Source: Caenorhabditis elegans
Lineage: Eukaryota > Nematoda > Chromadorea > Rhabditida > Rhabditidae
DNA: 64,000 nt
Assembly (NCBI RefSeq): GCF_000002985.6
Contig: NC_003283.11
Span: forward strand, 2,852,001-2,916,000
Direction of reading: 5' to 3'
Of this stretch, positions 11,333 to 15,284 are shown piece by piece. A program made the position numbers and the translations under genes. The first letter of the stretch is position 1. Every line of letters begins with the position of its first letter. Below the pieces are notes generated by a model. The model worked only from the letters and a program-made list of their open reading frames with translations. It was not told the origin of the DNA and did not search any database.

Positions 11333-13001
11333 ATGAACCTTTCGTATTGCCAAACTCCGGCATTTTTATCAAAAAGTCTTCATCTATTGTCATGTATTTC
11401 GATTCCGATTCACCTCTTCGGCGTTTATATAATATTGTGCAAAACGCCGGAGCCCATGCGAACAGTCAAATGGAGCATGTTCAACTTACATGTCTGGAGT
11501 GTTTTACTTGATCTGTCAATAAGCCTACTGACTAGTCCATTTGTATTATTTCCCGCGCTCGCTGGTTTTCCTTTGGGTTTTCTAAAAGAGCTTGATGTCT
11601 CCACTGGAGCACAAATTTATCTGGTTGTCACAGTTTTTGCAGGTAATCATTGTTGAAGTGTCCCCAGTTGTGATACTTTATCTTCAATCAATTTTTATGA
11701 AATTTCAGTTGTCGGTGTCGCTGTCCTTGGAATTTTCGAAAATCGATTTTATGTAATGTTTGCATTGGATAGCTTCTGGCGATATTTTCGGTTTCCATTT
11801 TTCCTATTCAATCATTTTATCGCAGTTTTATTCTTCGTTCCTCCATATCTAAGCATTCCAAATCAAAACATGGCTCTAGATCAAATATTTCAAGTAAAAC
11901 TAGAGCTGTTATGGGGGACGTCCCCTCTCGTCCCCCTCGATTTTTGGGAGCCGATTCCGGCGTCCCCCTTGCAGGAAATGGAAGCCCCAAAAGTTAATCT
12001 GAGTAATATGAGGTCGTTAAATCGATTCCCAATGCCAAAATTCATTTTCCGATCAGGAGAACTCCGGTATGAAAATCAGGGGGACGAGGGGGACGTCCCC
12101 CATAACAGCCCTAAAGTAAACAAACTATACTTAAAAAAAAACTAATCTGACTTGAGGACCTCGCTCCAGATCTTCCCGAGTGGATTAAAATTGGACCAAT
12201 TTTTGTGCTAACAACGGATATTGCGTACTCCTTTGTTTCAATCTTATTAATCGCAGTATTCATAATTGCTGAAATACTATTTTTCATTTTTCTTATTTGG
12301 CTAAATATGCAGTTTTTAACGAAAACGATGAGCTTATCAAAAGCGACTTTGCGTTTGCAACGGAAATTTCTAAACGCAATTCATATTCAGGTAGGTTTCA
12401 GACGAACTAGTGTCTGGAAATTCCAATGGTGGAGCAACGTCCGGAATTTTAGTTTTAATGGAAGAAAATGGCTCATAAATATTTATGAAATTGTTGAAAA
12501 AATTTAGAAAAATTTTATTCACAGAAACCGGAAATATGTACAAAATAATGTCATTCATTTGCGCGGGAATTCAAAAATTGAAAATTTGTTAGCCTTTTTT
12601 TTGTGTCTTGCAAAATTTAAAAAAAAACCATTTAAAATTTAGAAAAATTTAATACATTTTTACAGTAATATTCAGTCATTACTGTAATTTTTAGTCACTT
12701 TTTTGCTCAACTTTCTCAAAAGTATAGCTCAAAATTTCAGTTGTACACACCACTAGTGGCCTTGATAATTCCATTGCTATATTTTGCGTACTCTGTATAT
12801 TTCGACAGTTACAACCAAGCTTACAATAATATTTCCTTCATTATAATATCCTGTCATGGCCTCATATCCACCTTAATCATGCTTTTCATTCACAAGCCTT
12901 ATCGAGAAATTTGCCGATCTATTTTCTGTGGTTTTCGCGGGCACAAGACAAGCCCAGCGGCCCGATCACGGGGTCTCAGTATTGCACCTAATCAACTATG
13001 A
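11333..13001 (+). CDS. srh-family chemoreceptor with a mobile element at a splice donor
   Basis: Exons about 11333-11642, 11709-11893, 12157-12390 and 12741-13001 give about 330 residues. Signatures: IPIHLFGVYIILCKTP, VKWSMFNLHVWSVLLDL, IFENRFYVMF, LSIPNQ, TLRLQRKFLNAIHIQ and MLFIHKPYREI. Intron positions equal those of the srh gene at 8130-9605. Intron 2 carries a 211-base GC-rich element directly after the donor. The acceptor of exon 3 is poor: the only in-frame choice is TTGAG before GACCTC, while the nearer CCAG puts exon 3 out of frame. The gene may be hypomorphic or use a start of exon 3 I could not see. Putative chemosensory receptor in the ciliary membrane. Confidence 0.8.
11902..12112. 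repeat. 211-base GC-rich inverted-repeat element in srh intron 2
   Basis: Begins AGAGCTGTTATGGGGGACGT and ends with the inverted form CCCCCATAACAGCCCT. Flanking words AAGTAAAAC and AAAGTAAAC look like an imperfect target duplication that copies the splice donor. A related copy lies at 13333-13513. It is open in the frame of the preceding exon throughout. No transposase is encoded. Confidence 0.85.
12391..12740. other. Intron 3 of the srh gene
   Basis: AT-rich, with a pair of near-identical words TACAGTAATATTCAGTCATTAC and similar. Begins GTAGGTTTC and ends AAATTTCAG. No coding sequence or known repeat recognised. Confidence 0.5.
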
Positions 13002-13198: not shown

Positions 13199-15284
13199 AT
13201 GACTGATTGTGGAATTGAAAACTATTATTTTGCTAGTTCAGACTTTATGATTCTGGCTTGTCATTGTTTAACTGCAATTCAAGTGCCAGTATTTGTGTTC
13301 GGGTCTTATTGTATTATTTTTAAGGTAAGCTTAGGGCTGTTATGGGGGGTGTCCCCCTCGTCCCCCTGATTTTTATACCGGAGTGCTCGTGATCGGAAAT
13401 TGAATTTTGACATTGGGAATCGATTTAACTGCCTCATATTACTCAGATTCACTTTTGGGGCTTCCATTTCCTCCAAGGGGGACGCCGGAATCGGCGTCCC
13501 CCATAACAGCCCTAGGTAAGCTTAAACGAATTTGCACAAGATATGGGGCAAAACCGTATTTTCAAACGTATTGTATTGGCTGCTTTTTAAAATTTTTCAC
13601 ATTGAATATTGGGTAAAAAACTTACTAACTTTGAACTTCACGTACATTTTTTAAACATTTATTCAACCTAAAAATTATTGAAAGTTGCTAAAAAAAATTA
13701 ACAAAGAATTCAAAAAAATGTTTGAAAACTATCGATATATGCCTAAAAATTGGCTAAAAATGCATGAAAATTGGCGAAGAATCCTTGAAAATTGTTGAAA
13801 AATGCTTGAAAACAAGGAAAAAAATGCTTGAAACTAGGCGGAAAATGCTTTTAAAATTGTCGAAAAATGTCTGAAACTAGGCGAAAAATGGTTGGAAATT
13901 TACGAAAATTGCATGAAAACTATCGATAAATGCCTGAAAATTGATGAAAAGTGCTAGAAAACTAGGCAAAAATGCTTGAAAATTGTCGAAAAATTCTTGA
14001 AAATTGTCGAAAAATGCCTGAAACTAGGCGAAAAATGCCTGAAAATGGACAAAAAATTCTTAAAAACTGCCGAAAAATTCTTAAATATTGGCGAAAAATT
14101 GGAGAAAAAAAATCGGCAAAATTTATTGAAGCCTTTCAAGTTTACGGCCGCCTAATACCTAACGAGACCCAACTGTGCGGGCGCAGCATCTTCAATTAGC
14201 TGTGGAGCGCGTTTCCACCTCGATTTCAGAAGGAGCATTTTTATGGGCTCACCGCGAATTAATTGTGCACTTTGTCAGACTCCAAATCACATGCTAACAG
14301 TAAAATGGCTACTTTTCAATACACATATTTGGAGTTCCCTGTCCGACTTCGTTATTTGTTTCATGACAGTTCCATACCTATTCCTTCCTGCTCTCGCTGG
14401 CTATGACTTGGGACTAATCAATAATCCAGGTCTATCGATTTATCTTCTGGTCACTGTAACAGCATGTGCGTGAGTTTGTCGAAAAAAAATTGAAATTTTT
14501 TAACACGAATTTTCAGTCTCGGGGGTCTCCGTGCTTTCAATCTACGAAAACCGATATTTTATCCTATTCTGCAAAAAATCTTGGTGGCGAAAAACGCGAA
14601 AAATATATTTTTGCATCATTTACGGACTAGTACCTTTGATGTTTGTAGCTCCATTATTTGATATACCTGATCAGGAGGTTGCTCGATATGAAGTATTGAA
14701 ATCCATACCTTGCCTACCTGAACTTACACTGGAAAATCGGAAAATGTTCGTTTTGACGTTAGATTTTACAATTCCTTTTTCCTGTATCTTTTGTGCTATG
14801 TTAATTGTGGTAGCATCGTTTCTGGTCTTCATCTTCCTTACCTTTTCGAACATTTGGTTCGGGGATGCGTGGGCGGCTTCTAGGCAAACAATGGTGCTTC
14901 AGAGAGCTTTCACGAAAGGCGTCACAGTTCAGGTATGTTGTTCAAATTTCTGGTAATCTCTGATCTTCATACGTGCAAAAACAGAAGTTGAACTAGTCTA
15001 ATAAAAGTTGAGTTTTTCAGACTCTCTACGAATTTTTTATACTCTTCATCCCGGTCGTTACTTGCCTTGGCACAATATTTTTCTGGTATCACAATCAGGT
15101 CATCAACAATATTGCGCTTCTAGTTGTATCACTAAACGGAATCGGATCCACTATCATAATGTTATTCGCTCATAAGCCATATCGAACTTATACTCTTTCT
15201 ATTTTCTGCTTCCTTTGTCCAAAAGTGACAAAGAAAAGAGAGTCAGTGCATTTACGGGCACACCAATTGAGTGCCTTATCGTGA
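13199..15284 (+). CDS. srh-family chemoreceptor with an unusual early intron
   Basis: Exons 13199-13324, 14279-14465, 14517-14932 and 15021-15284 join in phase to 330 residues. Start MTDCGIENYYF precedes the first membrane segment. Signatures: VPVFVFGSYCIIFK, then after the intron TPNHMLTVKWLLFNTHIW, SIYENRYFILF, FDIPDQE, MVLQRAFTKGVTVQ, FFWYHNQ and MLFAHKPYRTY. The first intron (954 bases) interrupts FK/TP, where the other srh genes here have no intron, and holds a GC-rich inverted-repeat element plus a degenerate tandem array. Exon 2 needs the donor AT/GTGCGT to keep frame. Otherwise the structure equals that of the genes at 15792 and 18427. Putative chemosensory receptor. Confidence 0.85.
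13333..13513. repeat. 181-base GC-rich inverted-repeat element at the srh exon 1 donor
   Basis: Begins AGGGCTGTTATGGGGGGTGT and ends CGTCCCCCATAACAGCCCT. It is flanked by a perfect 10-base direct repeat AGGTAAGCTT (13323-13332 and 13514-13523), which contains the splice donor AG/GTAAGC. It is in inverse orientation to the copy at 11902-12112, as judged from interior words. Confidence 0.9.
13660..14115. repeat. Degenerate tandem array inside srh intron 1
   Basis: Units of about 30 bases of the type GAAAATTGTCGAAAAATGCC and TGAAACTAGGCGAAAAATG recur along the stretch. Both strands show open frames only because the units lack stops. No gene is supported. Confidence 0.65.

Follow-up and report, generated by a model that had tools for sequence, protein, structure and literature searches.

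The window analysed here is the 64,000-nucleotide stretch G000:C5:2852001-2916000 of the C. elegans genome; the genome searched comprised 100,286,401 bases in 7 contigs. Two neighbouring srh genes, referred to hereafter as srhA and srhB, lie in the window with two copies of a short mobile element, arranged as follows.

11333-11642, forward strand: srhA exon 1, Srh chemoreceptor (Pfam PF10318, 9.8e-40; boundaries read from the sequence)
11709-11893, forward strand: srhA exon 2 with the upstream donor used (PF10318, 1e-14; donor TCAA/GTAAAACT)
11892-11900, forward strand: left target-site copy AAGTAAAAC, holding donor 1 (GT at 11894)
11894-12115, forward strand: 74 open codons between the donors, without a Pfam hit at E<=1
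11901-12113, forward strand: hAT-like MITE of 213 bp, a long palindrome with ends TAGAGCTGTTATGG and CCATAACAGCCCTA
12114-12121, forward strand: right target-site copy AAGTAAAC, holding donor 2 (GT at 12116)
12116-12156, forward strand: 41 nt from donor 2 to the weak acceptor ACTTGAG/G, a probable remnant of the ancestral short intron
12157-12390, forward strand: srhA exon 3 (PF10318, 1e-14; paralog matches)
12741-13001, forward strand: srhA exon 4, to the stop codon (translation of the spliced model)
13199-13324, forward strand: exon 1 of srhB, the next srh gene (PF10318, 1.6e-07; relatives)
13324-13331, forward strand: left copy of the target site, GGTAAGCT, on the donor of srhB exon 1
13332-13514, reverse strand: second copy of the MITE in reverse orientation, 183 bp after an internal loss of 30 bp
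13515-13522, forward strand: right target-site copy GGTAAGCT, with a second donor CTAG/GTAAGC

All four coding exons of srhA are open and predict an intact Srh protein of 329 residues. The PF10318 matches in exons 1, 2 and 3 bear out the assignment of the host gene to the srh family made in a preliminary description of this DNA. Exon 2 ends in phase 0 at 11893 and is followed directly by a GT at 11894 (donor 1, TCAA/GTAAAACT). As had also been described, a second GT directly follows base 12115 beyond the element (donor 2, TAAA/GTAAACAA) and the 222 nt that separate the donors are a multiple of three, giving 74 codons with no stop in the frame of the exon. At srhA, then, a candidate donor lies downstream of the element and the frame runs open through it; the translated models give 329 residues by way of donor 1 and 403 by way of donor 2. 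The insert falls between TM4 and TM5, which by the canonical seven-transmembrane topology would be the second extracellular loop, as proposed earlier. It is proline-rich as claimed (10 Pro in 74 residues) but only mildly acidic (10 Asp plus Glu, 8 Lys plus Arg). A coding origin of the 74 codons was rejected, since Pfam returned nothing at E<=1. Taken alone, the open frame is not remarkable: of 5000 dinucleotide shuffles, 3.3% left frame 0 open and 11% left at least one of the three forward frames open.

The sequence between the donors is a mobile element, as had been recognised, although its length was put at 211 bases and the element proper measures 213 bp (11901-12113). It is nearly palindromic, with arms at 11901-11925 and 12089-12113 that are 96% complementary. 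Folded with its surroundings, it reached a minimum free energy of -120.5 kcal/mol compared with a mean of -78.3 kcal/mol for 100 shuffles (z -8.3). The flanking words, AAGTAAA(A)C on the left and AAGTAAAC on the right, are one A apart, with the extra A on the left. Without gaps the two 8-mers (AGTAAAAC and AAGTAAAC) differ at 3 of 8 places; with a one-A indel they are identical over 8 bp, which is the duplication length at other insertions of the family. Among random pairs drawn from the local flanks, a fraction of 0.002 agreed this well when a single mismatch or indel was allowed, and the earlier reading of these words as a target duplication stands. A TA duplication of the Tc1/mariner type, suggested by the TA at the ends of the repeat, was rejected, as sister copies have 8-bp duplications outside TAG...CTA. 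By parsimony, the site before insertion would have been TTTCAAGTAAACAAAC with an intron of 41 nt, and an empty allele would be expected to read CAAGTAAACAAAC. The one-base change would most simply have occurred in the left target copy.

The repeat was found at 36 matches (E<=0.001, the palindrome's reverse matches counted), corresponding to at least 25 distinct places in the worm's own genome, the srhA copy included. Paired ends were sought at 65 loci, of which L001 and L004 overlap, and at 15 more, yielding 23 end-pairs. Sixteen were kept for analysis, and those with no matching duplication (L009, L011, L016, L020, L088, L132 and L145) were dropped; at L088 the right flank, AGTAAGGG, is donor-like and the left flank is without a match. 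The 8-bp duplication was perfect at 9 of the 16 insertions and had one mismatch at 3, while W1 (srhA) has one indel, L134 a one-base offset, and L007 and L008 are imperfect. Nine of the 16 match the interior of the element (4 with perfect duplications, 2 with one mismatch) and the other 7 were found by their ends alone.

The terminal inverted repeats of the family are short, TAGGGCTGTTATGG or close variants at both ends, and match what we take to be hAT-type ends, which start with TAG or CAG. The duplications lean to nTnnnnAn, presumably the target pattern of Ac-type hAT elements, with T at position 2 in 8 of 15 and A at position 7 in 9 of 15 (17 of 30 positions, P=0.0045; L007 was omitted and one version was chosen where the two sides differ). 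Neither copy in the window has T at position 2. The central TA of the Buster pattern, nnnTAnnn, was not enriched in the same 15 duplications (P=0.66). Because of its short ends, 8-bp duplications and target pattern, we classify the element by sequence as a non-autonomous hAT-like MITE. None of 13 matches to the hAT dimerisation domain had the family's 11-base end (at most one mismatch) within the 3.1-3.2 kb examined for each. The segment C5:17581140-17584176 has good ends and was considered as an autonomous partner, and was rejected since its flanks are mutually inverted copies and not a target duplication. At L132 (C5:17580900-17584500) two family ends face each other 3.0 kb apart within what, given that the flanks are reverse complements, is a larger inverted duplication.

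The second copy of the element in the window (180 of 182 bases identical to a copy at C5:19262087) lies at srhB. Here the duplication GGTAAGCT is perfect and its left copy is the donor of exon 1. The two srhB donors, TAAG/GTAAGCTT on the left and CTAG/GTAAGCTT on the right, are identical 8-mers with a predicted U1 pairing of -9.5 kcal/mol each. They lie 191 nt apart with an in-frame stop between them, which leaves the upstream one as the only donor that preserves the receptor's frame. As the best available analogy for srhA, srhB would favour the upstream donor there too. The signatures at the two sites identify donor duplication by a hAT-like MITE as a real event that took place twice, in adjacent genes.

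The srhB intron that contains this element (13325-14278, at YCIIFK/TPNHM, exon 2 starting at 14279) has the MITE at its donor. An 18-copy array of a 21-bp unit occupies 13714-14099 within it, followed on the 3' side by a dispersed repeat near 14109-14245 that is partly matched at dozens of other places; a query of 13523-14271 gave 57 genome matches, itself included. The intron is absent from srhA and from the 11 relatives examined of 47 other matches (two in the window, L068, and L148-L155). It is a candidate intron gain, with a seamless splice junction (AAG/GTAAGC...TTTGTCAG/ACT).

At srhA we consider it probable, if well short of certain, that the upstream donor is mainly used, that the element is removed with the intron, and that the open frame comes from the element plus a one-base change. 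On this account a phase-0 intron of an srh gene, short at about 41 nt, would have received a hAT-like MITE within its first bases, and the 8-bp target duplication of the element would have copied the splice donor, leaving one on each side. Donor 1, which adjoins the conserved exon, would then carry most of the splicing; the hairpin could bring the ends of the intron close together as the element leaves with it, and the receptor would stay at 329 residues. Leaky use of donor 2 might give the 403-residue form as a by-product. The frame would owe its opening to the sequence of the element and to the single base, most simply in the left target copy.

Against this account, donor 1 has no clear advantage in strength over donor 2. 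Predicted U1 pairing was -3.0 kcal/mol at donor 1 and -3.2 kcal/mol at donor 2, compared with -8.3 and -11.9 kcal/mol at the donors of exons 1 and 3, and the scores from a table of worm donor frequencies were -0.07 and -1.01 bits, respectively. A GT inside the element at 12067 outscored both (2.83 bits, U1 -4.4 kcal/mol) and is out of frame. The predicted fold leaves donor 2 the more exposed site, with a mean unpaired value of 0.45 against 0.26 at donor 1. The intron measures 41 nt from donor 2 and 263 nt from donor 1; the former is nearer the worm median of 51 given in the available text of PMC8865678, so intron definition could favour donor 2. On the side of the account, the matched blocks of exons 2 and 3 are 239, 58, 55, 61, 82, 61, 53, 57, 150 and 478 nt apart in ten of 13 paralog regions (all but L070, L071 and L077). 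The distance is 53-61 nt in six of the ten, 82 nt in one and 150, 239 and 478 nt in three, so a short intron is common here among these srhA paralogs. At least one srh gene reads through the position of intron 2 in a single open frame (C5:17801193-17801603). In L066 (C5:2619000-2620900, minus strand), which holds the closest srhA paralog (C5:2620087), a different palindromic insert occupies the second half of the same intron.

The acceptor that both donors share is poor. The U2AF octamer is UUUUCAG/R (PMC4889670, available text); the srhA acceptor, ACTTGAG/G, agrees with it in the U at -5 and departs from it at -3, where it has a G and 9 of 10 paralogs read by eye have a pyrimidine, the tenth being unreadable. 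With a G at -3, intron 2 may splice poorly from either donor. A reading that draws on this is that srhA is decaying, with neither product made efficiently and the open frame drifting in an incipient pseudogene. The weak U1 pairing of the two donors, the departure of the acceptor from the octamer and a 213-nt hairpin in one intron would all fit, as would the many chemoreceptor loci that are nonfunctional in the reference genome: the 19 largest chemoreceptor families comprise about 1300 genes and, in addition, some 400 pseudogenes, according to the available text of PMC2576165. The four open coding exons and the intact 329-residue protein speak against decay, and we regard it as unlikely.

Four young copies, the srhA copy among them, share 92-99% identity, and none has a stop in the frame of the element; three older copies have 1, 1 and 3 stops. 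Since it is stop-free in all four young copies, the frame is inherited from the element and would not reflect selection to create an exon. Had the left copy kept its 8 bp unaltered, moreover, the insert at srhA would be 221 nt and would read V-N-stop, the TAG with which the element starts forming the third codon. The open in-frame state needs a one-base difference between the target copies and, on this reading, was not a property of the insertion event.

The preliminary description likened the arrangement to a first step of exonisation. As it stands, that view lacks support: the frame is inherited and equally stop-free in three other young copies, it is open at srhA only through a 1-nt difference between the target copies, and the sister donor pair is out of frame with a stop. 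In its full form the proposal is that donor 2 is regularly used and that the 74-residue insert enters the TM4-TM5 loop, in the only product or in an alternative isoform. The nearly equal U1 pairing predicted at the two donors would allow this, the length and openness of the frame suit it, donor 2 would bring back a short intron and is the less paired of the two in the fold, and the frame-opening base could be read as a mark of selection. However, the open frame was there in the element to begin with, inclusion would put a hairpin of roughly 210 nt into the coding mRNA, the sister insertion in srhB is out of frame, and transposon exonisation is anecdotal in invertebrates according to the available text of a five-species study (PMC2911107). 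Exonisation at srhA is by these sequences weakly disfavoured and leans to the improbable side, and regular inclusion of the insert is quite doubtful. That the flanks are unrelated and donor 2 a chance product is very improbable, because the 3 mismatches in 8 gapless places vanish with a single A, at the very length that duplications have elsewhere in the family (0.002 by chance), and the sister copy beside srhB has a perfect duplication.

We also asked how donor-like the targets of the family are, comparing the 16 empty sites with shifted positions in their own flanks by means of worm donor frequencies. Donor-likeness exceeded the 95th percentile at four sites (W2, L136, L022 and L135) where 0.8 was expected (P=0.007), in a set that was seeded by a finding chosen for its donor and in which only W1 and W2 are tied to a recognisable gene. 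W2 (srhB) and L136 were strongest, above the 99.7th percentile, and W1 (srhA) stood at the 91st. That MITEs with these ends favour donor-like targets, their duplication leaving a working donor on each side as ready-made alternative donors, strikes us as rather improbable, and a strong preference for donors was not adopted, the evidence being suggestive only. At L136 (C2:11765400-11766300) the ends of a 493-bp element are related to those of the family and its duplication, CCTTCAAG, is perfect; the site reads CTTGAAG/GTAAGCC on the minus strand. The element's TAGG end beside the duplicated G would itself form a GTAGG donor. L136 was rejected as a third donor insertion: its putative exon is a 62-codon open stretch that matches nothing else in the genome, and for that reason L136 is not shown to be a gene.

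In two adjacent srh genes, members of one MITE family thus sit precisely on a donor; the donor pair of the first is weak and in frame, that of the second strong and out of frame. Together the two loci are a natural experiment on how the worm chooses between duplicated donors separated by a hairpin, and could show whether donor duplication lets transposons enter introns harmlessly. Among the titles and abstract openings of the papers listed in searches on the subject, we found no report of a MITE duplicating a donor, or of a worm exonisation of this kind. The five-species study (PMC2911107), in its available text, names one worm exonisation, Y71G12A.2, while its discussion says that none was observed in fly and worm. 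Y71G12A.2 resembles srhA in that DNA transposon sequence is offered to the coding region of a worm gene; it rests on two RefSeq mRNAs, whereas the srhA case is read from genomic sequence.

The Drosophila hAT MITE Mar, as described in the available text of PMC3517528, is similar in its short ends, 8-bp duplications and lack of coding capacity. Mar follows the Buster pattern nnnTAnnn, unlike the worm set, which leans to nTnnnnAn. Introners (PMC9860276, available text) are likewise DNA elements able to gain a splice site from their target duplication, but they make a new intron in an exon, whereas the insertion at srhA lengthened an intron already present and gave it a second donor. The srhA element was not accepted as an introner, as srhA paralogs that lack the element are also interrupted by an intron at this position, although at least one srh gene reads through it. 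The Ac/Ds-like hAT element Ds1 of plants, whose exonisation is treated in PMC5432752 (available text), shares with the srhA MITE an 8-bp duplication, a TAG end that threatens a stop, Ds1 itself beginning with TAG, and the capacity to alter splicing. Ds1 brings donors and acceptors in its own sequence, whereas at srhA the second donor is the host's, copied by the duplication.
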